This document shows positions 7,327 to 61,846 of a stretch of DNA of 64,000 nucleotides, piece by piece. The position numbers and the translations under genes are program-made. Under the pieces are notes generated by a model that saw only the letters and a list, made by a program, of their open reading frames with translations, did no database searches and was not told the origin of the DNA. Where the stretch lies: assembly GCA_963681505.1 (NCBI GenBank), contig OY811974.1, positions 3,302,511 through 3,366,510 of the forward strand. Direction: 5' to 3'. This stretch comes from Eunapius fragilis (lineage: Eukaryota; Porifera; Demospongiae; Spongillida; Spongillidae). Numbering within the stretch: the first letter of the stretch is position 1; each line of letters starts with the position of its first letter.

Positions 7327-7670
7327 GTGTGGGTGTGTGCATGTGTGTGTAGGTGTGTGTGTGTGTGTGCAGGTGGTGCACACATTTAGGAGCAAGCAGT
7401 GAATGAATTATTCAAGTACATTAAGCATAACAATTTTACCTGATAAAGTTTTCAAAACTGGAGCAAAAAAAGACCCTTTCAAACTGGTAGAAGCGAGATA
7501 ACTCAGGCTGGTGTTGGTGGTGTGCTTTAGTCCAAGTTTCTTACAGTCCCACTCCTTACAGTGGTCTGCTGAGAGGAGGAATCTGTCGCTGCTGTATACT
7601 TTTTACAGAAGGACCAAAAAGAGGAGGAGCTCGTGGATCATTACCAGGCGTATTTGTTTTATCCCCTTAC

Positions 7671-9695
7671 CAATATCCTTACAACAAAGCACTTGGTAAA
7701 GAGGGCATCCTTTCTTCTCATGCAAAAAATGCAGTTCATGTGCAGGCTGAGGAACGGGCAGATCTTCTTCGCCAAAACTATCGGAACCCTGAAGCACGCG
7801 TTGATACCCATCTTCTAAAGCAACAAGATAAGCAGGTCAATGAAAATAAGGAGATTCTTCGTCATATTGTAATGGCTGTTGAGTTTTTGGCAAAACAAGG
7901 TTTGTCATTTAGAGGCCATAGGGATGATAGAGTAGATTTTGGAGTTGTTGATGACAACAAAGGAAACTTCATTGCCACTCTTCAGCTCATGGCAAAGGAT
8001 AGCAGTATTTTACAGAAACACCTACTAAACGCTAGTAAAAATGCTAAGTACACCTGCAAAGGTGTTCAGAATGAGATCATCCATATCTATGCCAGTAAAA
8101 TTAGAAGCAATCTGACACATCAACTTAAAGAGCAATGCTTGCCCTTCACAATAATTGCTGATGAGTGCACTGATTCTTACTCAAATCAAGAGATATTGTC
8201 AGTGTGCTTAAGATTTGTAGATCTATCGAGTTTGAAAGATCCTCATATCAAGGAGTGCTTCATTGGTTTCATTCATCTGGATAGGACAAATGCTGCCACA
8301 ATATCAAACAAGATCCTGGAGTGCATTAGTGAAGCACCTGTATCCTTGGACCCATCACTAATAAGAGGTCAGGCTTACGATGGAGCAGCTGTTATGTCCT
8401 CTGACAAAGCGGGTGTACAGGCTAAAATTAAAAAAATCTCTCCATTAGCAGTCTACACTCATTGTTATGCACACTGCCTGAATCTATCTATTGCATCAAC
8501 ATGCAACCTTCAAGAAGTAAGAAATCTTGTTGGAATAATTAATGAGGCATACCTTTTTATGCACAACAGTCCAAAACGTCAGCAAATGTTCCAGTTGACT
8601 ATGTCGTATCACTTACCTGATTCATCTCATAGTAAGCTTCCATGGCTATGCAAGACAAGATGGGTTGAAAGGCATACATGTTTTGAAGTGTTTTTTGAAA
8701 TGTATGTTTTTCTTGTGACGTTTCTGGATGCTATTGTATCTCCTCATGAGTACCCAGAACTAGTATCATCCTCTGGTAGTTGGGATTGGGATCGAGACAC
8801 AATAGTGAAGGCTCAAGGAATGAAAAGTGCACTCTCATCATTTCAAACAATTGCAGTTTTTATCATCACTAAGAACATTCTTGACATGGTAAAATCACTG
8901 GCTATTAAACTGCAGCAAAAAGATCAAGATGTACTTGAAGCTTACAAGATGATAGATGAGGTGGTTGAAGGCATACGGTACACAAGAACAAGCATTAATG
9001 AAAACTTTCATTTCTGGTATGCTGACATCAAAAACTTGGCTGACAGTGTTGGAACAGTTGAGGCTGTTCCTAGGAAGACTGCCATTATGAAAAATAGGAG
9101 TAATATTCCTAGTGACAGTGCAGAAGAGCATTACAAGAGAACCATTGCTATCCCATGTCTTGACAACCTCTCGGCTCAGATGGATCAAAGATTTAACAAA
9201 GAAGATCGCCATGCCTGTGGTATTCTTTCTCTTGTGCCATCTATGTTTCTAGACTTTGATGTTAATCCAGATGATTACATCAAAGATATGCTTAAATGGG
9301 AGAAAGACCTTCAATATCCCCTTGGAAGTGAAGTAAGGAGGTGGAAGGGACTATGGATGAATGTAAAAGTAGGTAGAAATAAAAGTGAAATTCCTAAAAC
9401 GCTTCTTGAAGCTTTGGCTGCATGTGACAAAGATTCATTCCCAAACATCCATTTCCTGCTTGTTACTGGCTGCACATTGCCTATATCCAGTGCAGAAGCA
9501 GAACGCTCTTTCTCCTTAATGAGAAGGATAAAAACATATTCGAGATCAGTTATGACAGAAGAACGTTTTTCTGATCTGGCTATGATTTCAATGCATTATA
9601 AAGAAAGAGTACCTGTGGATGAAATTTGCAAGGCATATGTGCAGGCGAATCCAAGAAAACTGTTTCAAGCATCCTTGTTTGATGATTGTGTATAA
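7671..9695 (+). CDS. hAT-superfamily transposase (ZMYM1/DUF4371-like), 5' incomplete
   Basis: Cut-and-paste DNA transposase with an RNase H-like DDE core and hAT dimerisation domain, acting in the nucleus. The main frame is open from about 7620, with clear homology from L-G-K-E-G-I-L-S-S-H-A-K (about 7692) to the TAA at 9693-9695. Landmarks: I-I-A-D-E-C-T-D-S (first catalytic Asp, about 8155), Q-A-Y-D-G-A-A-V-M-S (about 8372, second Asp), K-T-R-W-V-E-R-H (about 8652), and S-S-A-E-A-E-R-S-F-S-L-M (about 9488, third acidic residue plus dimerisation motif). The N-terminal zinc finger expected upstream is not recognisable, so the copy is 5'-truncated or has an unseen upstream exon. About 670 codons remain without a stop, making it the best-preserved transposase here. 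Confidence 0.85.
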   Translation, partial: QYPYNKALGKEGILSSHAKNAVHVQAEERADLLRQNYRNPEARVDTHLLKQQDKQVNENKEILRHIVMAVEFLAKQGLSFRGHRDDRVDFGVVDDNKGNFIATLQLMAKDSSILQKHLLNASKNAKYTCKGVQNEIIHIYASKIRSNLTHQLKEQCLPFTIIADECTDSYSNQEILSVCLRFVDLSSLKDPHIKECFIGFIHLDRTNAATISNKILECISEAPVSLDPSLIRGQAYDGAAVMSSDKAGVQAKIKKISPLAVYTHCYAHCLNLSIASTCNLQEVRNLVGIINEAYLFMHNSPKRQQMFQLTMSYHLPDSSHSKLPWLCKTRWVERHTCFEVFFEMYVFLVTFLDAIVSPHEYPELVSSSGSWDWDRDTIVKAQGMKSALSSFQTIAVFIITKNILDMVKSLAIKLQQKDQDVLEAYKMIDEVVEGIRYTRTSINENFHFWYADIKNLADSVGTVEAVPRKTAIMKNRSNIPSDSAEEHYKRTIAIPCLDNLSAQMDQRFNKEDRHACGILSLVPSMFLDFDVNPDDYIKDMLKWEKDLQYPLGSEVRRWKGLWMNVKVGRNKSEIPKTLLEALAACDKDSFPNIHFLLVTGCTLPISSAEAERSFSLMRRIKTYSRSVMTEERFSDLAMISMHYKERVPVDEICKAYVQANPRKLFQASLFDDCV

Positions 9696-10652: not shown

Positions 10653-13600
10653 ATGTACACTGCGGCACTACTGTGCGTACTTTTCGGAGTATGCTGTAAG
10701 TTCTTGGGTTCACCGAGTTTGATGTAATTCAGATATCTAGTTCGACGGTTGTGTTTCTTCGCCGAAAAAACCAATATGCGTATGTTAGTGTGCATTTAAT
10801 AGGGGCGAGAGACGTTCATCAGTGCATTTTTGTCAGGCACTGCCTGGGAGACCAGCTCAGAGTGCTGGATTCGTTATCGTTTCAAGGATATTCGGAAGGG
10901 CGAAGGGCGTGGCAGGCAAACAAACATGGGTCGATGGTCCTAATTTGTCGATGGGAACGGGGTGTGGCAGAGTTTCCGGGTCTAGTCACTTTTCTGAAAG
11001 GCTTGAACGTGGGCGCCAGATACAGACTGCCCGCCATAGTGTAATTACCCCTTGCATAGCTACACGTCTGCTGGGGAGGGAACCGACATGCGGGGACTGT
11101 AGCCAAGGGTTCTCTTTTTTTTTTTTTTTTCTCTCCATATATGTAGTTGCGACGCCACTCAATCTATTTGTGTCACATTACGAGCCCTTGAATTACGACC
11201 AGCACAACCTAATATGGAACCATAACCGCGTGAGGCGAAGCAACGTCGGACCCAAAGAGATTGAGCTGCGCATCGATGCATTTGGAAGGTAAACACAGTC
11301 GCAGCCTGTCATTAGATAAGGGCATTCGTCATCCATCACTTGTTACCGTTGCCTGCTCTTGCCACGAACACCTTAGCTTCTTCAACCTAATACTCTATCC
11401 TGACAACAACCTTTTTGATGAGGACACGGAGCTGGAAGGCGGGGGTCAGCCATTTCCGAAGCACCATATCCTGTCTGTGATGTATTCGGGACATGATATC
11501 GGTAGGCTAATAACAAAGGTGCACCCATAAATGAAGTTATTCCAATTAGGGCCACTTGTTGTGTGTCATAGAGGGATGATGTGTGCGTGCATGTGAGTGT
11601 GTGTGTATATGTATGTGTATGGGTATCTGTGTATGTTTATGTGTGTGCACTTGTATGTATGTGTATGTGTGTATGTGTGTGTGTGCATGTGCTCGTATGT
11701 GTATGTGCTTGTATGTGTGTATATGGGTGTGTGTGTACATGTGTGTTGTTTGGTTATTCCAAGCTTGCCACTAGGAGGAAGTGATGTAATGCTGTAGTTG
11801 CATTCCTTTTACTTCCTTATACATGTACACAAGTTGTTGAGACCATTGTCATGTGACATTTTCTATTGACCTGAATTTAGTTGACCAAGTCACACTTACC
11901 CTTCCTCTCCACACCTTCCATTCCCTCCTCACTTTCCTCCTCACCTTGCACTTTTTACTTCCCACCATGCACATTCACACCCTTCCTGCCCACACACCCT
12001 CCCCACACACCCTCCCCACACACTACACCCTTCCCTTCTCCCTTTTTAGATGATGAAACCATCACAGCTCACGGCCATGTAGCGTTTGGAGTGTTTGACG
12101 GAATTATTAGAACCGAATACGAAATCTACTACGTGGAACCGGCTTCAAGGTAACGTGTCTCCCAAACCAACTGTTCAAATTCACAGCACTCAAATCATCA
12201 CGATGTCTGTGCCACTCCATCCAGGTACCACACCAACTCCTCCGGCTACCATTCTGTTATATACCGTCACTCGGACCTGAACACCACAGCGGTCAACCTT
12301 GCATCGTGCGGGGGCGGCGATGGTTCGTTGGCCGAGAGCTTTCAGAAGAGCTCAGCGCGAGGCGAGAAGCAGCACCGCCTCCCTCTTGCAACCTCCTCCC
12401 CCCCTGGCGCCGACCCGAGTAGACCCGAGATGAAGCGACAGGCGGCGACCCCATCGTCCAACACACGCTGCAGGTTGAGGGTCCTGGGTGACTACGACTT
12501 CTACAGCGCTGTGACCTCTGGGTCCAGCGCCCAGGAACGCATGACCCAGGCCATGGCCATACTCGCCACCATCATCAAGGAGGCGAGCAACATATACCAG
12601 TCGACGAGCTTCACGCCCACCAGTGGCGGGAACATTGCGGGAATCAACTTTGCCATCTCGAAGCTGCTCGTGGATCCGGATCCGCCCACCGGTCCGCCGT
12701 TCAATAATGCCTTTATCGGCGTTCAGGCGTTCTTGGACTACCATTCACAGAGTGATTACTCGCAGTACTGTCTTTCGTACCGGTTCACGTACCGGCAGTT
12801 CGACCAAGGGGTTATTGGTCTGGCTTATGTGGCTGCAGCTGGGAGTTTAGGTACGTTGTAAAAGAACATGTACAATGTACTTGTATTTGGTTTGCGCGTC
12901 GTGTGTGGGTGGGGCTTACACATAATGCACGTGGGTGGGGCATAAACATGCCGTGTGGGTGGGGCTTACATGTACACATTAGCATGTTTGTTCCATCGCA
13001 TCATATGTAAGCACCACATGTTTCAGGTGAGCTATTTTTTTAACCCCCTGTCATTGCAGGCGGGATATGCGAAAAAGCGACCGTCTCGAATGGTGTGACA
13101 AAGACACTGAACACCGGTATTGTAACGCTCCTGAACTATGGCCAGAGGGTCCCTCTTATGGTGAACATATTGACCTTTGCCCACGAAGCAGGCCATAACT
13201 TTGGCTCCACGGTAATGCAGCCTGTTCTAAGAAATAAAAATTCACTGGGCAATAATGTAGCCTTGGCCCCAGACCCTAATACGTTACAGCACGGATGGAT
13301 TACATCACCGCATGTTTGAATATGATTCAAGCATGTGTGCTATGACGTAGTATTTGGGTCAGGGGCTGAAACAAGCAATAACTTTATTTTTAAAAATAAT
13401 GAGCATTAAATATTCGTAGCGTTTGCACATGTGTTGCCTTTACAGTGTGTGTCTCTCGTTTGGTAGCATGACTCTGACACAGACACGGTGTGTGCCCCTC
13501 CCGAGGGGAAGTACATCATGTATGCCCATGCCACTGATGGCTCACAGCCCAACAACAAGCAGTTTTCGCCGTGCAGCAGGAAATTGATGGGTGACATCAT

Positions 13601-15880
13601 CAAGCTAAAGCAAGGTCTGGTCTTGGAATGGAAGGGAGGGGGGGGGGGGGTGCTCACTTGGGGGACTTTTGTTTGGGTGTTCAATTGGGGACTTGCACGG
13701 TGCTCTTCGGGGAAGGTGGGGGGGGGGGGGGGTTGTCTTTGCATCACACTTTTATTGGGAATTGTACTGCAGTGGTTACACATTACAGGTTGATCGCGTT
13801 ATCACATAAGCACAGTGCTTTTGCCCAAATGATTGTACTGCAGTAGTATACATACTGCTCACAACTCCTTCCCAACCGCACGGCTTTCCTTGCAACCTCT
13901 TCCTCCCCATGCTTGTCATTTCTGTTTTTAACTGTTGGCTTCTGTTATCTTCTAGATGTGTGCTTTGTTCGCGGGGACAGCAACTGTGGGAATGCCCTGA
14001 TTGACGCTGGAGAGGACTGTGACTGTGTTGATGCTGATTATACCAACAAGAAGTGCCTCAGTGATCCTTGCTGCAACGTGACTTCCTGCAAGCTGAACAT
14101 TGGAGTGCAGTGCAGGTGGGTGGTGTGTCACTTGGCGTGTGTACGTGCATGTAAGATGTGTGTACATTTTTTGTATCTGAACCATGTGACGTGCACACTG
14201 GTATACATGTACACGTGCATGTAACATGTACACGTGCATGTATGTACATGTAGGGTGTGTTGTGTACAGGTGCACTGTAAACTTGCAATTACATGTACGT
14301 GTACTGTGTACTGTGCGTGTAGGTTTCTAATTGGGTACAAAACATCCTCCCACCCCCCCCCCCCCCCCCCCCGCCATACTCACCCCCACATAATCACAAT
14401 GGCATACCCTGGCCTCACCAGGTTTTTGGAATGCAGTTCTCAATGATCCATTTTGTTTACAACCTTTTTAAAAACACCATTAGATGGTGCTAGTATATTC
14501 CTTCCAGATATTGAAGCTTTCAATACACGCATTCTTTTGGTGAAGCCACTGCTTCTTCATGTGATATGTGTAGTGTGTATGTGTGTATATGTATGTATGT
14601 GTGTGTGTGTGTGTGTATGTTGTGTATAATTCTGTGTGCATGGGATTCTGGCGGTAAATCAAGCGTGCATGCGCATGGTGGTTTCTTCCATGTCTCCGAT
14701 AACCCTCCCTCGTGGCGGATGCCTCTTCCCCAGCCCATGTGTTATGCCCCCCACATGTGTCATGACCACTCCCCATATACCTCAGCCCCCAGTCATCTGA
14801 CCAGCAAGGCCAGGGAGGAGTATGCTGCAACGCCTCTACCTGCAGCTTTATCACTGAAAGTGCACGTGTAATGTGTTCCAATGAGACAGAGTGCGCCTAC
14901 AGTCAAAACTGCAGATATCCTTTTTTTAGGCAGTAGATAAATGCATGCACGTACCAATAATTGTGCATAGCTGTGGTTAACCGAAGCCTTCCCCCCCCCC
15001 TCCTCCTTTCCCTGTTGCCCTTTGCCACTCTCCCTCACTCATCTCACTCTCCTCACTCCCTGCTCTTACAACTCTTGTTTGTGAATACGAATACAGCTCC
15101 TTAACCACACTTTACTGGGAATTCCAGTGTGTGCCCTACCCCAACACCCAAAATCTTTTCAACGCCTAAACGCTGTGGCTCCAATGGTGCCTACTGCAAA
15201 AATGGGGTAAGATACATGTATGTTGGCCTGCAAGCCTCAGACTCTCCCCCCCCCCCCCCCCCCCCCCCCCTGAAAAAAAAGTTTCCCTGCATGCATATGT
15301 GCCTCTACTTCAAGAGTTGTGTGCATTGCTCGAGGTTACTACTACTCCTCCTGGGCAGGTGTGCGATGGAACAGTCTGCAACGTGGTCCTCCGTGTGAGC
15401 GACTGTGAGTGCACCACTGCCGATAAAGCCTGCCACCTGTGCTGCAATTTCGGAGGGACCTGCGTCTCCTCTTTTAACTTCGACACCTCCTTGCTCACCT
15501 CCAACAACATCACAATCAACATCACGAACAACATCGCGAACATCACGCGCCAGATAGGCCTCCCCTGCGCCAACTTCACCGGACACTGCGACTTCCTCAA
15601 CAAATGCCAGCTGGTGAACTCGGACGGGGCGCTGAAGCTCGTGTTCAGCACCATCACCAGCAACCTGGGCAACATCCTCGTCCAGATCAAGAAGTACTGG
15701 TGGGCGGTGCTCCTGGCCGGGGTGGGGGTCCTGGTGGCCATGTTCCTGTTGGTCCTGGCCTGCCACTTCCTCCTCCCCAGACCCCAGAAGGCCAGGAGGA
15801 AGGCCCAGCAAAGGATCGACAGGAAGAGGCAAAAGGGGGCCAGCAGCAACGAAACAGAATTGCACAATCGACGACGTTAG
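10653..15880 (+). CDS. ADAM10: ADAM10-type metalloprotease-disintegrin (11 exons)
   Basis: Membrane sheddase of the Notch/adhesion-protein processing type. Exons: 10653-10695, 11147-11288, 11377-11501, 12050-12149, 12225-12850, 13060-13211, 13467-13614, 13956-14115, 14786-14914, 15116-15206, 15359-15880. All phases match and the sum is 2238 nt (745 residues; human ADAM10 has 748). Domains: signal peptide (1-15); prodomain with H-Y-E-P-L-N-Y-D and Y-V-E-P-A-S; basic cleavage site E-M-K-R near 205; catalytic domain with [12 protein letters not shown] near 387-398 and Met-turn Y-I-M-Y-A-H-A; disintegrin-like and Cys-rich parts; transmembrane [10 protein letters not shown] near 686-710; basic tail. 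The zinc motif is split between exons 6 and 7. The intron after exon 9 has AT-AC ends. The gene converges on the espin-like gene, with stop codons about 290 bp apart. Confidence 0.92.
11581..11745 (+). repeat. TG-rich microsatellite in ADAM10 intron 3
   Basis: Imperfect (TG)n with TATG interruptions. Several overlapping ORFs here are pure repeat translations and not genes. Confidence 0.9.
14915..15115 (+). other. U12-type AT-AC intron in ADAM10
   Basis: The 5' end reads ATATCCTT, the full U12 AT-AC donor consensus. CTCCTTAAC at 15097-15105 matches the U12 branch-site consensus, and the intron ends in AC 10-11 bases after the branch A. Using these ends, exons 9 and 10 join in phase (N-C-S-G-N-S-S-V-C-P). 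No GT-AG pair does this at the same place. Confidence 0.85.
15246..15270. repeat. 25-bp poly-C tract in ADAM10 intron 10
   Basis: An uninterrupted C25 run. Similar runs are at 4277-4301 (G25), 6841-6860 (C20), 14353-14372 (C20), 30073-30088 (C16) and 34501-34517 (C17). Confidence 0.95.
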
Positions 15881-35126: not shown

Positions 35127-38100
35127 CTAAACACGACGAATGATTCTCACTGCACCAGTCTGCTTATTTATCTGCTGCCCTTGGGCAAAACAAAGGTCAT
35201 AGATTTCTGGTCGACCTGGAAATTGTAATGAAATTTTAGACGGTCCACGTTGTGTAGTATAATCTCTAAATGCTGCTTCAATTTTTCCTTGTGTAAGTAG
35301 GTCATAAGGGATCCAGGCTATGCCATCGTTGTATTGCCAGGTAGATCCCTTAAACAATTGAACATTTACTTCTTGACGTGAGATTTTTCGAATGTATTTA
35401 GATTTCATATTCATCTGTTCCATTTTTGGAAAATTAATAACATATACTTGAGGTAAGTCATCTACAAATCGAATTATTGGTGGTGTTACATATTCTGGTG
35501 AGCTAATGTCACCCTGAAATATACTGAAAGCCTCTTCGATCAGGACATTTATTGTATCTGTATATGCTTGAAAGCCACCTTCATCAGTCTGCCAGTGCCA
35601 ACGATATGGTGATATCCAGTTGTTGCTAATCTTCAATTGCTGATCATTAACTGGATGTTCGATATCATCCACTTCTGGTGGATCATCTGAGCCAAATAAA
35701 TGAAGCGGCAACTTCTGAGGTGGATAATTGGTAGTAAATGTCACTGGACAGAGCGCTGTGCCATATGTTACCACAAGAACTGGCAAACAGAAAGACATCT
35801 TCCAATCTGTAGGATTATTGACAACATAACAGAAATTGCCATGTTTTGTTGTATGTGGTCCTTGAACAAGTTGCGCAACAATCATTCGTGATGTTCCGTT
35901 TGCATAGCCATGTGAAACTTCAGCTGTTTGGCCAAAATATTCACCTGTTCCATAAGCCTGACCACTTCGACGAGTAGGGTCAAACCCATTGTGGCAAATC
36001 GATTGTATAGCTGCTTCAGAAGATGTGCCATGCCAAGCAAACAAAGTAGAAGGAAGAGCCAGTCCCCCAACAGTCAACATAGCATTGCAGTATTTAATCA
36101 TAGCAGGACACCCTAATTTGATCCCTGGATTTTCATCAATCCTTTGCGGATCTCCAAGTTTGTAGCTCCAATTTGAGTTAACAAATGACTTGGCACTGCT
36201 GAAAAGTGATTCAAAACATAATCCACGTCTTTCAAGTTTGGCAGCATATTTAAAATCAGCACAGTTTTTCCCAATATGCAGATGATTATCAACTGTCTCA
36301 CACATGACACAAACAAAAGACTGACAACTTCTGCACTGTCCATAGTCCATGCTACGTGAAAGCAGAGCAGAACAATTTTTTTGTGGACAAAAGGTAAGGC
36401 AATGTTTGGGCTTAGTTTTAAGAAATTCTTTAGCACTGGTGATACAAGCCTCGTCAAATACACGACTGTCTCGTATATCTCTAATTGAAATCAATTCTGA
36501 ACAAATAGGACAACATATTCCATGTGGAGTTGGTTTCTTAATATATTCTTCACATAGTATTGTTCTGCATTTTCTACAGCAAGGATGCCCACAAATAGAT
36601 AATTGCATGCCCTCATATACTTTACACTTCACACAAGACTGATCCAATATTTTTCTTTCAGCTCCACACAACTCAGTAACAATCTTCTGAATGGCCTCTC
36701 TACAGGACATCAACATATTTCCACGTTGACTTTCATGAATATCTGGGTTAACTAGAATTTCAATACTATCTAAATGTTTCACAAAAACCAACTTGGCACC
36801 TGTAATATCCTTTTGCAAAGCCTGAAGACGTTTGCTGCCAGCACTAGGTATTTGAAAAATGGAGGCAGTAATTGGATCATAACGTACACAGTCATATCGC
36901 CCTTCAAATGCATTACAGTGTTCAGAAATAGTGCTCATAAATTGTCCCTGTTTACTCTGGGGACCATATATGGTCAGGCCAAAAACTCCACCGACTTCAG
37001 ATGTATGAGGTTCCACAAACACACCACACTTGGATGCATCTTGCAAAAGACGCTTACTTGAATACAATTCAGTAATGAACAACTGTGAAGGAATGAACGA
37101 AATTATGATATCATTATAATCTGCTAAACATGGCTAATAGATTTTGAATTTATTGGACTGGACTTACACATGTATTTAGCGGACTGAGATAATTTTATTC
37201 CATAGAGACAAAATGTATTATGTAAAACCATTAATACACTAAACTTGCCCTGGTATGGGCAAACCCAAGAGCACTGCTGTCCCATTGAATGTCTTTCAAG
37301 ACACCTGCTACCTATTTGTGTTGTGCTAGGTGCTAAAATAATAATGTGCACATTTATGTAAAATCATAGTTCTCATGTAATTAGGATGCTTGCCATTTTA
37401 GTTATACTATAAATTTACAGAAAGTGTACCCCTAAAAAATTAGCAATAAGAAATGGACCCTTCAATGAATCTAAAAATAAAAGTCCAGAACGGGAAGAAA
37501 AATTGTTATGTAAACAGAGCTGACAAAAGAAAAATTTCTACTGAAGTTGTGTTTCATGATGCAACTGCTTTAACATGAGTACTGTCCACAAGTCATGTGT
37601 CACAGCAACAAACAAATGCTAGTACCTCAGGCAAACTAGTTAAAATAAGGTGCAGTTCAGTTTTAATATGGGTATTTACTTCTTATCTCATTGCAATGCA
37701 AAGTTCAAACACAGGTACAGCATTCAATTCTAATAAATTTGCCAGAGTTCAAGGCTCAAGAGCTAAACATGAAAAGTGAGTATTTCTATTAACCTGGATT
37801 AAAATAACCTTCACAAAGTAACTTTACATGTCATCTTATCATGACAACATGGCAAGAAATCACTATTCATTGAAATGTACTACAGTAATAGTTATTACCC
37901 TAACAATACTTAGAATGATGCAGATCATCATCACTAACGCTGCCTTTTAGCTTTATGACCATAATGATATCTACTTTAGATATATCATAGTTTAACACTC
38001 AGTTCCCATACAATAACATGGGGGAAGAGGGGTGTGTCCATACCTGCTGTTTTCTCTCTCCAAGGTGTATCTTTAGAGGGCATACATATGCTTGAAGTGC

Positions 38101-41100
38101 TTGTGCACATAGACCAACTTGTTGAGGAGATGATCCTGTAAATCTGATGGCATTGTTCGCTTTTTGTATTTTGAACTTCACGGAATACTTTTCAGCCACT
38201 GAATGTGCAAGAGACGGAATATCATACAGCTCAGGATGACTTATATATACCACCGCCTCTGCATAGAGTTTACTATCTGGCCATCTATTGTGATTGTTAA
38301 TTACAAATTGTTCAGCATCTTCAGTTTTAGCAAATACAAGGCTAATAATACAAGCTGACTGCACTATTGTAGTATCAAGTGAAACTTGAATTAACTTTTG
38401 GTACCCTTTCTTTGTTGTAATCTGTTTTTGAAACCGTGCATTTCCAAGCAAGCTTTGCTTCAGGATCAATTCAGCCCTCAAATAAGCAGCCTTAGAAAGG
38501 GCATTTGGTAAGGTCATAAAAGCTTGATCATGAACAACATTAATTTCAGGATTTGTTAGTTCAATATCTAATGTATTATATAACTGCTCTGATATATTCA
38601 TTCTTGTAATGTCATCAAGGGGTATATTGCGCAGTCGAAGTGAAAATGTTTGTGGCTGAACAGTTGTAACGTGCACAGAATTTGGCAATAACTGGTCAAG
38701 TTGACTGCGTAGCATACTCTCATCCATTTTTACAGAAAGGAGCAATTTCTGACCCTGCTCTTTGTTAGCAGTAGATGATCTTTGTATCGCTGATCCTTGT
38801 TCTAGATTTATGTTAGAGGCTTTCTCAGCTGCTATCTCATCACGAAAAACAGCAATTGCAAAGGCTTCTTTATGTTTAGTGCCCTTATATTGTGATGGGT
38901 AGTAGTGGTACCATTTTATTGTCTGATCAGATAGTTTTGTTTTTTCAAGTATCCAAGTTTTAAATTCATCACTGGATTTTACAGGTGGATTAACATATTT
39001 CACTCGAAGAGCTAATCCGATTTGTTCCAGAGCATGGATACGTAGCCCTCCAATGATTGTAGCATAAGCAGATCCTTCACCAATCAATACAACTTGTTCA
39101 TACTCTCGCTCTTCTTTCAATTTCTTATCAATGATTTCTGACACACAACATTTGACATGTGTACCAATTTCTTTTGGAGCAGATACACACACAGCATTTT
39201 TATCCGAATCATAATAACAAGAGATAAAAATTTCCAATCCATTACATGCTTCATTAATAGGAATTACTGTTAGCTGCTTTTGAAGATGTGTCAAAAACCT
39301 TTTGTTCAAATTATCATGAGAGTAGCAGACCAACATCTGTAGGCAACGCTTTGAAACTTGTTCTAACTGAGATTGTGTTAACCATGACTCTTTAATGGGG
39401 TGGGCATGATCTGCAATTGTCAAACCATTAGGGATTTGAGTAACTAACATTGAAATAAAAAATGGAGGGGCTCCTTTTTTACCCCTAGCAATAGCCAAAG
39501 CAGTGGAGTTGGAAAGGTGAGCCTTCATGACACTTGACACCACATAAGCTCCGGCTTTAGGATTATGTTGCAAAATCATTTGACATAGCTGATCTTCAAA
39601 ACCTTCAAGCAGACAGCGGCCTATTACTTCCATATTATCAGTGTCAATATCTCGGGATAATACCTTTGTATGGGCTCCCTGCAATTTTTTAATTTTATTT
39701 CTCTCTAGAATTGTCATTACTGATGTAACATTTTTTAGGACAATTTCCATTATTTTATTGTTAAGTCCTTGTTCATTTGAATGGCATATGCGACAAGATC
39801 GACATCCACTGTTTCGTTTGAACAAACATACAGGTATTTTTTGGGTACAAGTATTGCAAGTCATGGTCACTGGATCCACACTTCCTGCTGTAAACCAACT
39901 ATGATAAATGGACTGGAGGTACAGCAAATCACTTTCAATCTTTGCACTTTCATCAGCCATACGTTTCTTGACTTCGTTACGACCAGTCTTTCCACCTCCC
40001 ATAAAAAATATTGATCCAGGTGCACTCAAAATAGCAGCAATATTTGAAGCCAATTCTCCTTTTCCATACTGCTCATGGGCTGATACAACAAAATGACTTA
40101 ATCGCGGATCGAATGGCAATTCACTAAAAACACTTCCTCTCGGAGTAATTTTGTACATTGTGTCCAGGCAATTAAATTTATGCAATGTCTGTGAAGAGGA
40201 ATCAATTAAAACAGCTTCTGGTGCATCAATGAAAGGAAATGTCCTCGGGTCATAGCCAATCTTGCTGATTTGCAATACCACAAGGTCTAGGGATGAACGA
40301 AGTATTTCTGGTGTAATGTGCTGTCTTGTAAGACGTTCATATTTGTACAAGCGAATGCAGTGACCAGCTGCTGTTCTACCAGCACGACCTTTTCGCTGTT
40401 CAGCACTGGACTTGGAGATGTGCACAAGTTCTAAAACTGTCATGCGACGCTTAGGATCATATCGTGCTTCTTTTGCTAACCCTGTGTCAATAACAAGGCG
40501 AACATTGGGAACAGTCAAAGATGTTTCTGCAATATTTGTACAAAATACAACCATGCGCAATGTTCCATTAGAATCATCGAAGTTCAGAATTCTGCTTTGC
40601 TCTTCAGGTGGTAGACTGCCATATAAAGGCAAGCCAATCCATTGAGGATTAGCTTCCTTTGTAAATTGACGCAAGGCACTGTCAACTTCATTACTGCCAG
40701 GCAAAAACACCAGGCAGTGCCCTTCTTGATGCATTTCTAAGGTTTTTATTACTTTTGAAATGAGGTAGCCACTTTTTAGTAGGTCGTCATCTTCGTCATC
40801 TATGTCATTAGCATACTCAACGTCTACAGGAAAGGTACGGCCCGGAACCTTTAATGGCTGGCAACAACTGCCCCCTCCAAAGAAGAATTCAATAAAAGGC
40901 TTGGGGTCAATTGTAGCTGATGCTATAACAACATAAAAATCATCTGGGCGTTTTTTTCGCACAAGCTTTGCAATTCCAAGAACCATATCAGTATTCAAAC
41001 TTCGTTCATGAGCTTCATCTATAATCAAAACAGAAATATGTTTCAGGTGTACATCATTTTGTGCTATGCGAACAAGAGATGAATCTGTCATTAACATAAT

Positions 41101-42303
41101 TCGTTGCCCTTGTACAGAATTTCCCCCAACAGTATAACCAATACTTTTTCCGGCTGCAGTACCATCAAATTCATATGCCATTCTTTGTGCAATAGAAATA
41201 GCAGCAACTGCTCTGGGCTGTGTACAAACAGTAAGACCACTAAATGCTTCAGCGCAATACTGGGGAAGTTGTGTAGTTTTTCCTGATCCAGTTTCTGCTG
41301 TTACAACAACTACTTTTTCCCTCTTAAGTTGATCAATGAACTCCACTTGGCTGTTCAAAATGGGCAAAGCAGCCTTAATTCGTTCCTGTTGTCTCATTTG
41401 AACAGATTTTAAATAATTTGATTCTTGAGATGTGGCAGCTGAAGGGTCCCAATTTTGAGGATGAAGTAATATGCAGTCAGTATTTGGACAGTTGATCTTT
41501 TGTGGACATATTTTTGGTCGCGTAAGTGGATGGGTGAGACAACACATTATATCAAAACAGATTTCACCTAAATGGCAAACTTTGTGACCTGGTGGGTGGC
41601 GTCTTTGGCAATCTATCTTATAACACATGCTTTTAAACTGACATATTATGTCTCCACGAGACGGGGGGTGGTTTAAAGTGCATTCAAAATTTTCGCAGTC
41701 TTTTCCTTCACTGCATATTTGTCTTTTAGAACTGTGAAGATAAGGACAGTTGATATTATAGCATGATTCAGCATACCAGCAAAATTTGTTTGGATGTAAT
41801 GATGGACAGTCTTCAACAGTATCATCAGCTGAATGGTACTCTGATTCTGATCCACTCTCATCTGTACCATATGATTCTAAAGACAATTTCTTTCCATCAG
41901 GGTGCACAAAGGAACAACCCTGGCGTGTGCATTCACTTCCAAATTTGCAAATATCAGATGCAGTTGATTCTTTTCTATCAGGGTGCACTAATGAACAGTC
42001 TGAGCGTGTGCAACGTATACCAAACTTGCAAACAGATGTGTTCATTGACTTTTTTCCATCTGGATGCAAAAATGAACAATCTAATCGTGTGCAATTTGTA
42101 CCAAATTTGCAAATAGAAGCTGTGGTCGTTGCAGTTTTTCCATCTGGGTGTAGATATGAACACTCAGAGCGTTTGCAACTAGTTCCGAATTTGCATAAAA
42201 TAGAAGACGTTATTGATCTTTTCCCATCAGGATGAATAAACGAACAGCCTGTGCGTGTGCAGTTTGTTCCAAACTTACAAATGGGTTTCCTTTTCTCTTC
42301 CAT
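35127..42303 (-). CDS. CCCH-finger DEAH-box helicase / RBR-like / PARP-like / WWE protein (2 exons)
   Basis: Exon 1 42303-38044 and exon 2 37082-35127 join in phase 0 (CAG/GTATGG ... CTTCACAG/TTG), giving about 2071 residues; an in-frame stop lies just upstream of the ATG. Residues 8-285: ten C-x5-C-x4-C-x3-H fingers (e.g. C-K-F-G-T-N-C). About 310-1000: DEAH helicase with E-T-G-S-G-K-T-T (338), D-E-A-H (430), S-A-T-I, Q-R-K-G-R-A-G-R (639) and the HA2 region. About 1570-1700: RING1-like C-V-K-C ... C-G-H-P-C-C followed by an IBR-like Cys/His cluster. About 1770: PARP-like F-A-W-H-G-T and G-T-G-E-Y-F-G, keeping His and Tyr; a third-position Glu is not apparent, so mono-ADP-ribosylation or no activity is likely. 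About 1916 and 2002: two WWE-like segments (W-H-W-Q-T-D, T-W-Q-Y-N-D). Helicase-RBR fusion is known from plant DEAH11/12; finger+WWE+PARP recalls ZAP/PARP12. An RNA-surveillance or antiviral role is inference. Confidence 0.87.
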
Positions 42304-49924: not shown

Positions 49925-52162
49925 ACAGAAAAAATCCAGGGAGTGGCTATGGACAAAGCGGTGTGAAGATGCCTTCATTGCTCTCAAGACCCATCTGACC
50001 TTTCCTCCAATACTCTCATTTCCTGACTTCCAGGCAAAGTTCACTGTCGATACTGATGCAAGCCTGGATGGAGTTGGTGCAGTACTCTCCCAGCAAAATG
50101 ACAGGTGTGTAATTGCATATGCCAGTCATGTGCTCAACAAACCTGAGTGACAGTACTGTACCACTCGCCGTGAGATGATGGGCAGTTCAACTTTTCAAAC
50201 CTTACCTGTGGGGCTGACCGTTTGTTGTTCGCACCAATCACAGTGCACTTCAGGGGCTACGGAACTTTAAGGATCCTCAGGGACAGGTTGCTAGGTGGTT
50301 GGAAATCCTGTCTGAATATGATTTCAAGGTTCAGCACCGTCCTGGTGTCAAACATGGCAACGCTGACCCATTGTCAAGGCTTCCACGCAAGCAATGTGGG
50401 CTGTCAGAGTTGTCAGAAATGGGTGATGTTGGTCTTGTTAACTTAGTAACATGGTTTATCTTCTTCTGAGCAGAGACAGTTGCAGCAGTCTGACAAGGAG
50501 TTAAAACACGTCCTAGCATGGATGGAAAAGGACCATGTCCAGCACTATTCCCAAAGAACAGTGGATACTGGGTGCAGACTTTGTGGTCACAACATGATCA
50601 TTTCGTGGTGAAAGATGGGGTGCTTTTCAGAGAATGGGAGGACGTGCAAGGGAAAGGTCGTAACAAATGCCTGCAGTTTGTTATTCCCTAAGATATGGTT
50701 CGCTCCATATTGCAACAGCTTCATGATGCACCAAGTGGTAGCCATTTAGGTGTTGCTAAGTCACTTAATAAGATCAGTTCTTGGTTCTATTGGTCTGGGC
50801 AGCAATGAGATGTGGTGAATTGGTGCAAGCTTGTCATGTGAGTTATGTGCAGCACATAAATCTCCTCCTAGAAAACGGAAGGCTAAACTGCAGACAGAAC
50901 TCTCCAGCCATCCATTTCAGCGGGTGGCAAGGGACATCCTGGGACCACTACCTCAATTGGTGAGAGGTAGTAAATACATACTGGTTATTGGTGACTACTT
51001 CACCAAGTGGATGGAGGCATTTGCCATACCTAGCATGGAAGCAGTTACTGTGGCTGAGGCATTTGTATTCCAATTTGTGAGTCGGTTTGGTGTCCCTTAC
51101 TTCCTTTACACTGACCAAGGTTGGAACTTTGAATCTGCATTATTAAAGGCTGTGTGTACTATGATAGGAATCAGTAAGACCAGGACTAACCCCTATCATC
51201 CTCAGTTGGATGGTCTGATTGAGCAGTTCAACCGTACACTGTTGAATTTACTGAGTATGGCAACTAAACAAGATGAACACAATTGGGACTTGCATCTGCC
51301 TTTAGTGATGCTAGCTTACCGCACTAGTGTACAGGAATCCACAGGGTGCACTCCCTTTGAACTTGTATTTGGAAGAGAAGCTCGGTTACCTGTGGATGTT
51401 GTGTATGGTTTACCCCCTCAGACTTCCCTAACAGAGGTGAATCAGTATGCTTTGGATTTGAGACTTCGCATGGAGAAGGCATACTGACAGGTTCAAGAGC
51501 ATATGGGGCTACAGCATCAACGGCAGAAGGAGCTGTATAACATATCTTCCAATGGTGACCCATTCAAAGTAGGGGATATGGTGTGGCTGCACTGTCCGGC
51601 AGTTCCTCATGGTAAATCCCCAAGGCTTCATTGCTTCTGGCAGGGACCTTACAGGATACATAAAGTGGTTAGTGATGTGTTTTACAATATCTCCCTGCGG
51701 GATCGTCCTTGTAAACATCAAGTGGTTCACTTTGACCGGCTAAAGCCGTGTGTGCACCTACCTTCAAACCTGCAGGAGAGACAGCAGAACCCAGCTGAAA
51801 CCATTCTACCAGATTGTCTTGACATCTCTGCTGACCCAAACCTTGATGGTACTGATAATGGTCCCAACTTACCAGTTATGCCTGGAGATCTAGATGAAAC
51901 AGATGATGACTCAGATGATGACGACCCTGAATTACCAGATGTACCTGCAGTGCCTGTAGACATTGATGAGACAGATGCTCCTCAAGATTTTCAGATTGCA
52001 CCACAGAACTTACCCATGGTGCAGGCAGAAGAAGGTCCAACTGGAGTGAAGGAGGTTCCTTTCAACCCCAGAAAAACAACTCGACCTCATACATGACCTC
52101 AAAGACTGGGACAGAACATTCATGACATTTAGGGGCCTGCCTTTATCTGGGAGGGGGAGTAG
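49925..52162 (+). pseudogene. Ty3/gypsy pol remnant (RNase H and integrase), many lesions
   Basis: RNase H begins near 49940 (C-E-D-A-F-I-A-L-K, then F-T-V-D-T-D-A-S, G-A-V-L-S-Q) and has a TGA at 50148. The Q-H-R-P-G-V-K-H-G-N-A-D-P-L-S motif is near 50332. The integrase zinc region (50690-50860) has stops and shifts. The catalytic core is open from 50831: G-D-Y-F-T-K-W-M-E-A, Y-T-D-Q-G-W-N-F, G-L-I-E-Q-F-N-R-T-L supply the three acidic residues. A TGA at 51485-51487 interrupts A-Y/Q-V-Q-E-H in frame, after which the chromatin-side domain (P-Y-R-I-H-K-V, V-V-H-F-D-R-L-K) and an acidic tail run to 52096. Purine tract GGGAGGGGGAGTAG (52149-52162) precedes the LTR. Gag, protease and most of the reverse transcriptase are absent. 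Confidence 0.85.
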
Positions 52163-55445: not shown

Positions 55446-57911
55446 TAGATACAAACATGTGACATTTGCCAGCGAATGAACAGAAAACTCACTTGTGGCG
55501 TGCCTGAACTTCACCCAGTTCCCGTGAAATCCCCATGGTACATGATAGGGATTGATTTCATTGGTCCTGTTAGCCCACCTGGAGAAGATGGAAGTAAATA
55601 TATTCAATTAGTGACTATTTCACGAAATGGGTCGAGGCCATTCCAACACCAGACAAAACAGCAGCTACTGTTGCAAACTGCCTTTATAAGGTATGGCATG
55701 TATAAACTAATGATTTATATGCTGCAATTCATTACACTTTAGTGTTTATATTGCTTAGCATTAGTATTGCCTAGATGCATGTGCATAATGTAGCAGTGGG
55801 GTATGCACGTATAGGTGTTATTTCAGCAAATGTCTGCCATTTTGTGCTGTGCATGTATAATCATGTATATTCTTGTGCAGATCTTCATGAGAATGGGATT
55901 ACCCAGAGTTATACTCTCTGATAATGGTTCAGAGTTTTGCAATAAATTGAATGACAAGCTGGCTGAGATTCTTGGAGTGAAGAGGCGGCTTACTACACCA
56001 TGCCATCCTCAGGTAGGTGTCAAAAGCTATACTACATATCATGAAACCTTGATTAACATTATTCACAGGCAAATGGTCTGGATGAACATTCCAATCAGAC
56101 ACTGCAAAACATGCTGGCAAAGTTTGTTTCAACCAAACAAACAGTGTGGAGCTCCTACCTAGACAATTGTACTTTTGCATACAATACATCAAGACATGAG
56201 TCAAGCACATATACACCATTTCAATTAATGTTTGGTCGTCAAGCAATTCTACCTATTGATATAGACCTACAGAAGGAATCAGGTGATGAATTGCATCACA
56301 AGTATCAAGTGTTGAATGATCCAGATATTGTAGCAGTTCAACACAAACATCAGGTCATTTTGGAAGATGCAAAAAAGCACATTCTTGATGCTCAAAAGAA
56401 ACAAAAGCAGAAGTATGATTCAAAACGTGCCAAGCCAGATTGCTTTCAAGTAGGAGAGCTAGTGATGAAGAAGAATTTTAGAAGAAAGAAAATGAAAGGT
56501 GGTAAACTACAAGACCGATTTGATGGTCCACACAGAGTTGTTAAGAAGATGCCACATGGAATATATGAACAGATCAGCAAAGACGGCACTCTAATTCGAG
56601 CTACTGGAGGTCACCTTAAGATGTACCACAGCAATATGCTCCAAGGAAGTACTTCATTTGATGACAAGCAAGCCTCCAGCAAAGTGATATCTGATGATCC
56701 ATCAACCAGTGGTGTTAAGCCTGATGACACATCCATCTGCAGTGGTATTGAATGTGATGACCCATCCACCCCCAGTGATGCTGAGCATGATGGCCTACTC
56801 ACACCCAGTGATATTGGGTATGATGACACACTTACCACCAGTGATGTTGAGCATGATGGCTTAACCGCACCCAGTGATGTTGGATGTGATGGCACACAAA
56901 CCATCAGTCATGCTAAACCTGATTACCAACCCACCACAAGTGATATTGAGCCTAAAGACCTACTCCCCCTAAAAGATGCTGACTCTCCTGTCTTATACTA
57001 TTTTGCTCCTGCAAAACACGTTGTGCTACTAAAAGATGTCCACTGTGCAAGTTAAATCATTCATGCTGTGGACACTATTGCCATCCAGGTAAAAGTTGTT
57101 GTAATATGGAAACAGCAAAACCAAAAGAAGTTGTAAATCTAAGTGCCAGTGATGATGATGCCCAAAATGATTCTGTATGGATAAAAGTAGGAGAATCTGT
57201 GTTGCATAAGGAGGACAAAGTGGTATTGTCGAATGATGGATGGTTAATGGACAATATAGTACATGCAGCTCAACAGCTTCTTAAACAAAGTCATCCTCAT
57301 ATATCTGGCCTTCAAAACCCAATTCTTCAGAAAACAAATACCTTTGATGTGCAAAGAAACCTACCTAGACTTTGTACAATGCCTGAATATCAGAGACAAC
57401 CATGCACTGGATAACAGTATCTGCTGCTTCAAGCATTCCAGACACCATAAATGTATATGATAGCTTGAATGGTACATTAACTGAAACTTTGAAACAAATT
57501 ATTGCAGATTTAATGCATTCTGCGGGAAAGCAAATCACAGTACAGTATGTGAATGTTCAGTACCAGAAGGGTTTGCAGGACTGTGGTTTATTTGCAATAG
57601 CCTTTGCCTGCGAAATTTGCTTTGGCAAAGATCCTTCATCCGTTAAGTTTGTCCAATCCACAATGAGACAGCACTTTATAGAGGGACTAGAGCAAGGAAA
57701 TATTTTGCCATTTCCATCAGCTGTACGACGACAAAGATCACAGGTGGTGCGTCAAGAGGTGTTTAAAATATTCTGCTCTTGCAGGATGCCTAATGATGGT
57801 AGAAAAATGATTCAATGTTCAAAATGCAGAGAGTGGTATCATTTGAGCTGCGTCCGAGTCGACAGGAAATGTTTGAGACACACTGTGCCACGGTTCTGTG
57901 GTTGTAAATAA
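55446..57911 (+). pseudogene. Ginger1-type transposase: gypsy-like integrase + Ulp1 protease + PHD finger
   Basis: Ginger1 elements are cut-and-paste DNA transposons whose transposase derives from the gypsy integrase family and carries a C-terminal OTU or Ulp1 protease. Exon pieces: 55446-55692 (T-C-D-I-C-Q-R zinc end, G-I-D-F-I-G-P, then D-Y-F-T-K-W-V-E-A in another frame), about 55880-56012 (I-L-S-D-N-G-S-E-F), 56070-57050 (A-N-G-L-D-E-H-S-N, third acidic residue; GPY/F-like D-G-P-H-R-V-V). Next: a Cys-rich run (C-P-L-C-K-L-N-H-S-C-C), a Ulp1 domain with H-W-I-T-V-S-A, V-Y-D-S-L and G-L-Q-D-C-G-L-F-A-I-A (His-Asp-Cys triad), and a PHD finger (F-C-S-C-R-M ... C-S-K-C-R-E-W-Y-H-L-S-C ... F-C-G-C-K). 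Two GT-AG introns interrupt the integrase core. Frame breaks near 55607, 57010, 57355 and 57398 make this copy defective. Confidence 0.8.
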
Positions 57912-59980: not shown

Positions 59981-60166
59981 CGGTTGTCTAGTTCGTTGCT
60001 ATGGGGGTTCGCAACCATTTCAATATTTCTGGGCGTAGGGCCTAATTTCAATGAGAGCAGACTACCGTGAAAGGCTGTGATGTATAGCAAAAGGTTGTAT
60101 AATTAGAGCAAGACTTTTTTCTTTAAATCTAATTATAGGTAATTCAGTAATATTAGTAGGCGCGCA

Positions 60167-61846
60167 ATGGAAAGGTTCATAGAACGAGAATGCAGCAGCT
60201 ACTTTTACATCGACGACAGTCGTCGCAGATTTATACAAGACACAGAGGAGACATTGAGTTCTCTTGTCAATGGAAAACTCCTACACAGAACTCACTTCCG
60301 TAGGCTCCTCCTCGGTCGAAAGGGAACGGGCAAAAGCACGCTCCTTGAAGTAATTGGGAAAGCGGCTAAATCAGTTTATAAAGAACAGCTAACCGTCTGC
60401 GACGTAGAGTTTCTAAACCCCACATTCGCAGTGCTTCCATCCACCTTAATAGCTATGGCTACCGGGGCAGAACAGTGTCTTCCTGTACGTATCAAAGTCC
60501 TTGACGATCTCTTGGACAAAAACAAGAAATTCGTTTTGTTCGTCGTGGACGAATTAGACCAAATTTTCCGTTCGGACAGCGCTATTGGGAAACAGATAAT
60601 TGGAGAGCTGGCCGAAATTGGCAATTCAAGTAAAGGAAGAGTTCACTGTATCATTAGTGGGTCCAGCAGTCGCCTTCGCCAGCTATGCTTTAGCAAACTT
60701 CCAAACAAGGATAAAGCTGAGTTCCCAAACTATGAAGGTATTGACCTTAACAGTACAAAATTCTCTGCCCGGTGGATACATCCTTTTCTGGGAAAGAATG
60801 ATTTTATCAATGTCTTCCGTATATTGCATGAAAATGATTATGATCAGCTGGATGAGTCTGAAAAGGTCAAGTTATATATTCTAACTGGAGGAAATGGCAG
60901 ACATATGGCAGAGAAGGATGTTAGTTTGAACACTTACAGTGTGTCTCTCAAGAATTTTTCTGATTCTGACATGACCTTGCTAAAAGCTCTCTTCACTTCT
61001 ACAAGGGACTTCATGTCCCGCTTTGAAGAGGCGCTTGACAAGGTGTCTAATTTCACTCGCTACATTCCACTCTCTACTGTTTTACATGAGCTCAGCGGTA
61101 CTACATTTGAAGACTTACTACCAACCCTGTATAATTTAGCTGATAGAGGTCTGCTTCGTTTCAAAGATTACCAGGATAAGTCGGGACATGGACATGAAGT
61201 ATCCCTTGGTACTCCCTTGATATACCTACAGCTAGCAAACATGAATAACTGTGACCTCACAGCACAAGAAGCTGCTGCCCTCATATGCCCTGAAGCAAAC
61301 CAAGAACTGTCTGGGGAAGTGGCAATGAGGTTTTTATTGCCAAAGGCATATGAATGTGGTATTGGTCACCAACTGAAGCGAAGACATGTAAAACAGCGGC
61401 AGCTGTACATTAATAGTGCAGGGAGTACTGATGACCCAAACATTGTAAACCTTAACTCCACTAGCAAGGAAGACCTAACAAGCTACTTCTACAAGGAACA
61501 ACCGGATGCATATGGAGCTGATGCTGTTATTCATGAAGTGGAGGAAAATGGTACGATGGTGGCACATCGCATACAGCTTAAGCTTGGAAGAAAGCGGATA
61601 GACTTACAGGAAGCTGAGAAAATTGCTAATAGATTTAGCACTCACGAGAAAACGATTGAATTTTTTTACTCACAGTGTGGAATAGAAGGATTGAAACAAA
61701 AATTTTATCTTGTGTCCACTAGATCTTTGGCACCTGCTGAAAGAGAATTTCTTACAAATCGCTGTATCACCACTATAGATGCAGCAATGCTGCGAGAGGT
61801 GGTGTGGCCAGATGTGGTAAAGGGTTTGGGTAAGCCTTACAATTAA
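60167..61846 (+). CDS. Intronless P-loop NTPase with C-terminal nuclease-like motif (Crinkler-like)
   Basis: 559 residues in one uninterrupted frame, flanked by intron-bearing genes and transposons. Walker A G-R-K-G-T-G-K-S-T at about 47-55; Walker B F-V-L-F-V-V-D-E-L-D-Q-I-F at about 122-134; sensor-like I-I-S-G-S-S-S near 163-169; helical middle with Y-I-L-T-G-G-N-G-R. Near 448-471, G-A-D-A-V-I-H-E then H-R-I-Q-L-K-L-G fits the D ... (E/Q)-x-K pattern of restriction-endonuclease-fold nucleases. Crinkler-type proteins, described in oomycetes, fungi and some free-living eukaryotes, combine these two parts; the NTPase is thought to regulate the nuclease. I recognise the architecture rather than a specific orthologue. 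Alternatives are an AAA/STAND regulator or a transposon-derived protein. It carries no signal peptide or transmembrane segment, so it is probably intracellular. Confidence 0.7.
   Translation: MERFIERECSSYFYIDDSRRRFIQDTEETLSSLVNGKLLHRTHFRRLLLGRKGTGKSTLLEVIGKAAKSVYKEQLTVCDVEFLNPTFAVLPSTLIAMATGAEQCLPVRIKVLDDLLDKNKKFVLFVVDELDQIFRSDSAIGKQIIGELAEIGNSSKGRVHCIISGSSSRLRQLCFSKLPNKDKAEFPNYEGIDLNSTKFSARWIHPFLGKNDFINVFRILHENDYDQLDESEKVKLYILTGGNGRHMAEKDVSLNTYSVSLKNFSDSDMTLLKALFTSTRDFMSRFEEALDKVSNFTRYIPLSTVLHELSGTTFEDLLPTLYNLADRGLLRFKDYQDKSGHGHEVSLGTPLIYLQLANMNNCDLTAQEAAALICPEANQELSGEVAMRFLLPKAYECGIGHQLKRRHVKQRQLYINSAGSTDDPNIVNLNSTSKEDLTSYFYKEQPDAYGADAVIHEVEENGTMVAHRIQLKLGRKRIDLQEAEKIANRFSTHEKTIEFFYSQCGIEGLKQKFYLVSTRSLAPAEREFLTNRCITTIDAAMLREVVWPDVVKGLGKPYN

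Follow-up and report, generated by a model that had tools for sequence, protein, structure and literature searches.

What might a single protein do with an RNA helicase, ubiquitin-ligase-type zinc domains and an ADP-ribosyltransferase (ART) domain on one chain? This question is raised by a minus-strand gene in a 64,000-nucleotide stretch of the genome of the sponge Eunapius fragilis (GenBank assembly GCA_963681505.1, contig OY811974.1, positions 3,302,511 to 3,366,510), which we call the window. Our tentative answer is that the gene represents a distinct eukaryotic family, one that probably shares an ancestor with DEAH11/12-type proteins, in which a small ART with a His-Tyr-Cys triad and two WWE domains stand at the place of RING2, and that its product may act as an ADP-ribosyl writer in RNA surveillance.

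An earlier reading of the same letters, made without database searches (the sequence-only reading), had proposed that two long exons join in phase to encode about 2071 residues, and this proposal holds. Exon 1, of 1420 codons, lies at 42303-38044 and exon 2 at 37082-35127; joined in phase, they give 2071 amino acids with a single terminal stop, and the 961-nucleotide intron between them is of the GT-AG type, with GTATGG at its 5' end and TTCACAG at its 3' end. The open frame spans 1437 codons, while the maximum in 100 base shuffles of the 64-kb stretch is 193. That 961 nucleotides separate two long frames is what speaks for two adjacent genes or a mis-joined model. However, two homologues align through the junction: P0001 (2129 amino acids, from a 6547-base contig) covers residues 9-2071 at 61%, and P0002 (2505 amino acids, a Trinity record by its name) covers residues 4-2071 at 39%. 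Furthermore, among the 57 relatives P0001-P0057, several of which are fragments, the helicase motif (DEAHER or DESHER) is found in 44, the ART motif in 48, and both together in one frame in 36. Open reading frames of other genomes are interrupted no more than three residues from the same junction; homology ends at residue 1423 in P0027 and P0028 (open reading frames from large contigs) and begins at residue 1421 in P0139 and at residue 1420 in P0140 and P0141. Since P0001 and P0002 span the junction and the other frames break at residues 1420-1423, relatives preserve the fusion and, it seems, the intron position as well, and on these alignments two separate genes are very improbable, a reading that we consider nearly excluded. 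A whole-protein tblastn search of the window matched this gene only, with no local second copy. Among eight short loci (L001-L008) searched in the same way, only L006 matches, weakly (9.4e-7) and in the WWE range. Scans for bacterial-type promoters and terminators, a kind of scan that is inapplicable to this gene, gave nothing beyond chance.

The sequence-only reading had further listed ten CCCH fingers, a DEAH helicase, two Cys/His clusters in the style of RING1-IBR, a PARP-like domain and two WWE segments, and each of these parts is confirmed. The C-x5-C-x4-C-x3-H pattern occurs ten times in residues 1-300, compared with a mean of 0.013 and a maximum of 1 in 5000 shuffles, and Pfam zf-CCCH_2 (PF14608) matches the protein at 7.8e-23. 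Residues 311-803 match DHX15 chains at 2e-85 in phmmer, and Pfam recognizes Helicase_C (4e-14) and DEAD (1.8e-11). The Pfam PARP match lies just above its cut-off (2.1e-6, 27.9 bits versus 26.7), and a profile match to PARP12, described below, agrees with it. Two stretches match Pfam WWE (6e-20), and the tandem is closest among solved structures to DTX1, which is matched over both domains at 4.9e-11. The Cys/His clusters are recognized by a family profile and by their conserved zinc ligands. Pfam searches of the joined protein returned the expected zf-CCCH, PARP and WWE domains but not the equally expected RING/IBR and HA2, for which, as for OB and KH_DEAH11, no match was obtained at E up to 1. 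It is possible that the failure to detect HA2/OB and KH_DEAH11 reflects divergence beyond the reach of HMMER; in the relative P0039, HA2_C matches below threshold.

At least three fingers of the above pattern are present in 23 of the 36 relatives that have both helicase and ART motifs, so fingers are common but not universal in the family. The N-terminal RNA-binding parts vary among relatives: P0015 combines three RRM stretches with two pattern fingers, and P0056 has a weak, sub-threshold La match and zero pattern fingers. Just after the helicase lies a Cys cluster, similar to that seen in 20 of 47 relatives tested, which is possibly a small zinc knuckle.

Over RING1 and IBR, taken as one stretch, an eight-row profile of the family matches RBR ligases, with values of 1.8e-8 for HOIL-1 (from profile position 17) and 3.9e-6 for ARIH2, and it also matches HOIP over both domains, plus many single RINGs. 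When 33 rows (exon 2 and 32 of the 57 relatives) are aligned, 15 of the 16 zinc ligands are invariant. These are all eight ligands of the IBR and seven of the RING1, the remaining one, C169, being at least 90% conserved. The family thus shares with HOIL-1, ARIH2 and HOIP a RING1-IBR unit, but unlike in those ligases, no RING2 was found in it. A RING2-like pattern is present in all three of the DEAH12-like proteins used for comparison and in none of the 57 family relatives, 48 of which reach the ART; likewise, the family profile of the tail after the IBR, compared with the RING2 tails of the DEAH12-like proteins, gave 0.4% in hhalign. Because a RING2 with its catalytic Cys was not found and ART-WWE-WWE occupies its place, the protein is not an RBR ligase, and the RBR-type ubiquitin transfer that had been suggested for it is unsupported as stated.

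DEAH11 and DEAH12 helicase-RBR proteins occur in plants, and the pointer to them in the sequence-only reading proved a good one, the middle of the chain being alike in order. Our comparators were three DEAH12-like proteins (P0058, P0063 and P0064), in which helicase, KH_DEAH11 and IBR exceed the Pfam cut-offs and RING matches fall under them; HA2 or OB is above cut-off by at least one model in each, with some of these matches under it. A profile of the family's post-helicase region (25 of 28 rows) aligned with the DEAH12-like proteins over 784 columns (99.4%, 5.3e-22; hhalign E-values here are those of single comparisons). With a stricter cut (22 of 23 rows, P0021 skipped and P0010 not given), the comparison was split into its parts. 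The middle without the zinc domains matched over 504 columns (93.0%, 3.6e-7; 0.1% for each reversed control and 0.4% for HrpA), and RING1-IBR alone matched over 127 columns (98.4%, 6.1e-15; 0.2% reversed). Only the 784-column alignment covers the KH-like stretch, since the alignment of the middle by itself stops some 140 columns short of the RING. The similarity as aligned extends to the end of the IBR, and none was found beyond that point. Thus, the DEAH helicase, a middle region of like order and RING1-IBR are shared, whereas HA2/OB and KH_DEAH11 matches and the RING2-like pattern belong to the DEAH11/12-like side, and the Eunapius family has ART-WWE-WWE at the RING2 place and, in many members, CCCH fingers.

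The helicases of the family and of the three DEAH12-like proteins form separate supported groups in unrooted trees. In a tree of 57 rows (of 58 family candidates, 11 had dropped out for a missing motif or short length, as had 3 of the 13 other rows), one branch separates 47 family rows from 10 others with a Shimodaira-Hasegawa-like approximate likelihood ratio (SH-aLRT) support of 100. A careful tree of 37 rows has 21 chosen family rows on one side of a branch supported at 100/100. Given that the trees do not place the family beside the DEAH12-like proteins, we infer a common helicase-RBR ancestor from the middle region and the zinc domains, with three comparators; judged on these, the family and the DEAH11/12-type helicase-RBR proteins probably share an ancestor.

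A 14-row profile of the ART, compared with solved structures, matched PARP12 best (1.6e-7), followed by PARP13, PARP10, PARP15 and PARP14. The catalytic triad was counted starting from 67 rows, namely the query plus P0001-P0057 and P0139-P0147 (P0138 being the protein of the window itself). Eight were dropped as fragments or too short (P0027, P0028, P0031, P0051, P0052, P0054, P0141 and P0144) and two, P0039 and P0053, for a lost ART motif. The 57 usable rows include the window protein, rotifers, Chilomastix and Eukaryota sp. TZLM1-RC. We observed the triad His, the NAD-site Ser and a second Tyr in 57 of 57 rows; the triad Tyr is likewise found in 57 of 57, by selection, because the rows were picked by a motif, G[EV]YF[GH], that contains it. 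The third triad position is Cys in 54 rows, Ala in two and Ser in one. By MAFFT alignment this position is the Cys of FCYVV and not the Val of LPV. It is Ile or Val in six PARPs of the Eunapius genome, which are six of eight loci taken from 38 PARP-domain matches and include some near copies. The loop from the preceding strand to the third triad position is also much shorter, at 17-21 residues compared with 48-53 in the same six PARPs. The PARP/ARTD rule of Glu (poly) or a mostly aliphatic residue (mono) at the third position does not describe a family with Cys there. For Clade 3 PARPs, Citarelli et al. (PMC2964712) report a single Glu, a single Gln and five Ser/Thr at this position, which is otherwise mostly aliphatic.

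The 38 PARP-domain matches in the Eunapius genome, many of them in long frames and with groups on C21 and near C1:16.6-16.7 Mb, are a sign of a PARP expansion. Candidate origins of the ART outside eukaryotes were set aside. Scanned with the ART alignment (as two peptide patterns), neither viral contigs nor prokaryotic genome contigs yielded a relative, and a tblastn search of exon 2 against phages gave no match.

The signature PGR[PS]E of the second WWE is found in 27 of the 36 relatives that combine the helicase and ART motifs. The window protein terminates at WWE2, and four relatives, P0002 (residues 2322-2400), P0024, P0029 and P0056, have a tail beyond it with a GG[FY][VI]RD..D.D motif and a later conserved Asp. 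We take this motif to resemble that of CCA-adding-type nucleotidyltransferases. A nucleotidyltransferase assignment for these tails was rejected: it has the motif only, and a profile of the four tails matched one solved structure, at an E-value of 0.91.

With the exon-2 part of the protein as query, 26 homologous proteins were found, and with exon 2 alone 10, one of which is the window's own. Residues 600-1720 gave 130 proteins; among the 120 listed, 40 have E-values of 6.9e-68 or less, after which there is a drop to 2.2e-23. The full order helicase-RING1-IBR-ART-WWE is also present in rotifers, Chilomastix and an unclassified eukaryote. Since relatives share this architecture, the chain is not a chance fusion, and the proposal that RNA-binding, helicase, RING1-IBR, ART and WWE parts belong to one chain is upheld. 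The named sources are the rotifers Adineta, Rotaria and Didymodactylos, the metamonad Chilomastix cuspidata, the unclassified Eukaryota sp. TZLM1-RC, and the archamoeba Pelomyxa schiedti, in which the ART is degenerate (P0039). In P0039 we also noted, by eye, a second IBR-like cluster. From the style of its name, we take Em0008g387a (P0144) to come from Ephydatia muelleri, a freshwater sponge.

None of the listed matches from the open-licence literature describes such an architecture, and a description may exist in other publications, such as reviews on the natural history of ARTs. In the main text, as available, of two surveys of PARP evolution (PMC2964712 and PMC4245714), the words helicase and DEAH do not occur. 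In the available text of a survey of human PARP domains (PMC10450202), helicase appears once, inside the name of the RWD domain.

Several known systems share parts with this family. The Clade 3 PARPs PARP12, PARP13/ZAP and PARP7 have CCCH fingers, a WWE pair and a PARP domain (PMC10450202, available text) and mostly lack the catalytic Glu (PMC2964712, available text). ZAP and PARP12 (Clade 3E) have the order CCCH-WWE-PARP with the PARP domain at the C terminus, whereas in the window protein the ART precedes the WWE pair, a helicase and RING1-IBR are added, the third triad residue is Cys and not mostly aliphatic, and the loop is short. Deltex proteins (DTX1, DTX2 and DTX3L) share the tandem WWE. 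The window protein has RING1-IBR and ART instead of their RING-DTC, where DTC is the Deltex C-terminal domain, in which the catalytic residues of Deltex lie. Pfam contains a DTC model, and neither DTC nor RING-DTC was found in exon 2, for which Pfam gives only WWE and PARP at E up to 1. Deltex is also a system in which ubiquitin and ADP-ribose parts are brought together (PMC7615817): the passages available to us state that Deltex enzymes link ubiquitin to ADP-ribose (PMC7615817, PMC10810221, PMC11467253 and PMC11460948) and themselves provide the catalytic residues (PMC7615817). In vertebrates, ZAP, a protein of the CCCH-WWE-PARP type, works together with the RING ligase TRIM25 and the DEAH helicase DHX30 (PMC11414379, available text). 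These are separate proteins, whereas comparable parts lie on one chain here. We claim no shared ancestry, and the comparison suggests by analogy a like purpose and not common descent.

The strongest mechanistic hint is one of position, in that the ART sits at the RING2 site, after a ligand-complete RING1-IBR and before a Deltex-like WWE pair. Judging from the domains, the CCCH fingers and the middle region would hold RNA, which the DEAH motor would move or remodel. RING1-IBR, by its homology to RBR ligases, could recruit an E2-ubiquitin conjugate, and the ART would move ADP-ribose from NAD+ onto a held target, be it an RNA-bound protein, an RNA end or ubiquitin. The WWE pair, as a Deltex-like tandem, would then bind the ADP-ribose product and keep the enzyme there, with the outcome that aberrant or foreign RNA-protein complexes get marked. 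A likely role, on this evidence, is therefore that of an RNA-loaded surveillance factor in which an E2-binding RING1-IBR is combined with an ADP-ribosyl writer whose product is read by the WWE pair. The sequence-only reading had suggested ADP-ribosyl recognition, with RNA surveillance or antiviral defence as a conceivable role. With His and Tyr in 57 of 57 rows, the ART may be a writer and not only a recognizer, though its motif has been lost in two relatives.

A number of observations weigh against the writer reading and its proposed ancestry. The placement of the third triad residue comes from one MAFFT alignment with six PARPs, and the profile and local matches end before the Cys. This residue is neither Glu nor the usual aliphatic one and the loop is short, which makes ART activity uncertain. 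Two relatives, P0039 of Pelomyxa and P0053, no longer have the ART motif but keep the other parts: in both, HGT and GEYFG are changed or missing, and the triad His is gone in P0039. The ART can thus decay with the helicase and zinc domains retained, and because of these two proteins it may be non-catalytic or not needed. A RING1-IBR that lacks RING2 could be only a scaffold, and most of the middle region has no assigned fold. As for ancestry, two of the three DEAH12-like sequences are near copies of each other, row P0010 had been trimmed too early in the 784-column comparison, and one control was unclean, in that the DEAH12-like middle matched HrpA at 67.1% over 74 columns. Finally, in the helicase trees the family sits by itself on a long branch, away from the DEAH12-like, HrpA and DHX34-like rows.

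Some of these observations are what would be expected if the ART were a pseudo-enzyme that binds NAD+, ADP-ribose or RNA without transfer, with RING1-IBR as a structural or E2-docking scaffold. The protein would then be an RNA-surveillance helicase that senses ADP-ribose through its WWE and ART domains. PARP13/ZAP, whose PARP domain is without activity, is among the solved structures matched by the ART profile, and the absence of the catalytic Glu, the degenerate ART of P0039 and P0053 and the missing RING2 all fit. We nevertheless regard a pseudo-enzyme as somewhat unlikely: the His, the Ser and both Tyr are identical in all 57 rows (picked by a motif that contains the triad Tyr), which would be unusual for a dead site, and the triad His is never lost among them, although it is lost in P0039, which lies outside those rows. 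On balance, the conserved site argues for catalysis, and the missing Glu and the losses in P0039 and P0053 urge caution. Alternatively, the protein could be a Deltex-like or Cys-based ubiquitin ligase that passes ubiquitin from RING1-IBR to ADP-ribose made by the ART, or passes it via the ART Cys, giving an ADP-ribose-ubiquitin hybrid from one chain. The DTX1-like WWE tandem, the Cys that 54 of 57 rows have as third triad residue and the ART at the place of RING2 would agree with this, as would the joining of ubiquitin to ADP-ribose by Deltex (PMC7615817, available text). Yet Deltex supplies its own catalytic residues (same source), the Deltex C-terminal domain was not found, and nothing indicates that the Cys can reach E2-ubiquitin, which together make such a ligase improbable. 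It is slightly more doubtful still that the ART took over both the place and the job of RING2, so that the third-position Cys or freshly made ADP-ribose would receive ubiquitin from RING1-IBR.

Were the ART such a RING2 substitute, one RNA-loaded chain would write ADP-ribose-ubiquitin hybrids on RNA or RNA-bound proteins, and it would stand as an ancient counterpart, on a single chain, to the ZAP-TRIM25-helicase assembly of vertebrates. A bacterial enzyme, SidE, also makes the ADP-ribose-ubiquitin hybrid. The chain would provide a further route to this hybrid besides Deltex (PMC7615817, available text). The writer reading also has its own interest. It concerns a helicase-PARP family that a sponge shares with rotifers, a metamonad and other eukaryotes and that an archamoeba has in degenerate form, and it concerns an ART that is unusual in having Cys at the catalytic position after a strongly shortened loop. 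The architecture points to an exchange of domains at one definite site, with an ART for the ubiquitin-transferring RING2 in an RNA-helicase chassis, and this makes directly testable how ubiquitin and ADP-ribose signaling on RNA became coupled. The coordinates of the gene and its parts are collected in Table 1.

Table 1. Parts of the helicase-RING1-IBR-ART-WWE gene, in window coordinates
Feature	Position	Strand	Content	Basis
Exon 1	38044..42303	-	residues 1-1420: CCCH fingers, DEAH helicase, most of middle region	open frame, splice donor
Ten C-x5-C-x4-C-x3-H fingers (Nab2/CCCH-type)	41461..42279	-	residues 9-281	PF14608, pattern count
DEAH helicase region	39895..41373	-	residues 311-803	DHX15 match, Pfam DEAD and Helicase_C
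Cys cluster CxxC...CxxC just after helicase	39781..39858	-	residues 816-841	sequence, pattern count
Middle region, exon 1 part	38044..39765	-	residues 847-1420	order as in DEAH11/12-like proteins, hhalign
Intron	37083..38043	-	961 nt	GT...AG
Exon 2	35127..37082	-	residues 1421-2071 and stop: end of middle region, RING1, IBR, ART, WWE1, WWE2	
Middle region, exon 2 part	36636..37082	-	residues 1421-1569; place of DEAH11/12 KH domain	long hhalign alignment only
RING1-type zinc domain	36501..36635	-	exon-2 residues C150 C153 C164 H166 C169 C172 C191 C194	ligands, RBR profile
IBR-type zinc domain	36261..36389	-	exon-2 residues C232 C237 C250 C253 C258 C261 H269 C274	ligands, profile
PARP-type ART in place of RING2	35757..36224	-		Pfam PARP, profile to PARP12, triad and loop counts
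ART triad	36032-36030, 35939-35937, 35831-35829	-	H1771, Y1802, C1838	alignment
WWE1	35373..35600	-		Pfam WWE; tandem match to DTX1
WWE2	35133..35354	-		Pfam WWE; DTX1 and TRIP12 WWE matches

Further features noted in the window, each on the plus strand, include a hAT-type transposase-like gene with DUF4371 and a hAT dimerisation region (7491-9695). Reprolysin and ADAM10 Cys-rich matches at 12154-12861 and 15170-15880 are perhaps exons of one ADAM10-like gene. An integrase core (rve) at 50819-52096 and a stretch at 56057-57055 with a weak, sub-threshold Tf2-1 SH3 match are probably remains of mobile elements. Lastly, a 567-amino-acid open frame at 60143-61846 has weak NACHT (6e-4) and AAA (1.2e-3) matches, both below cut-off.

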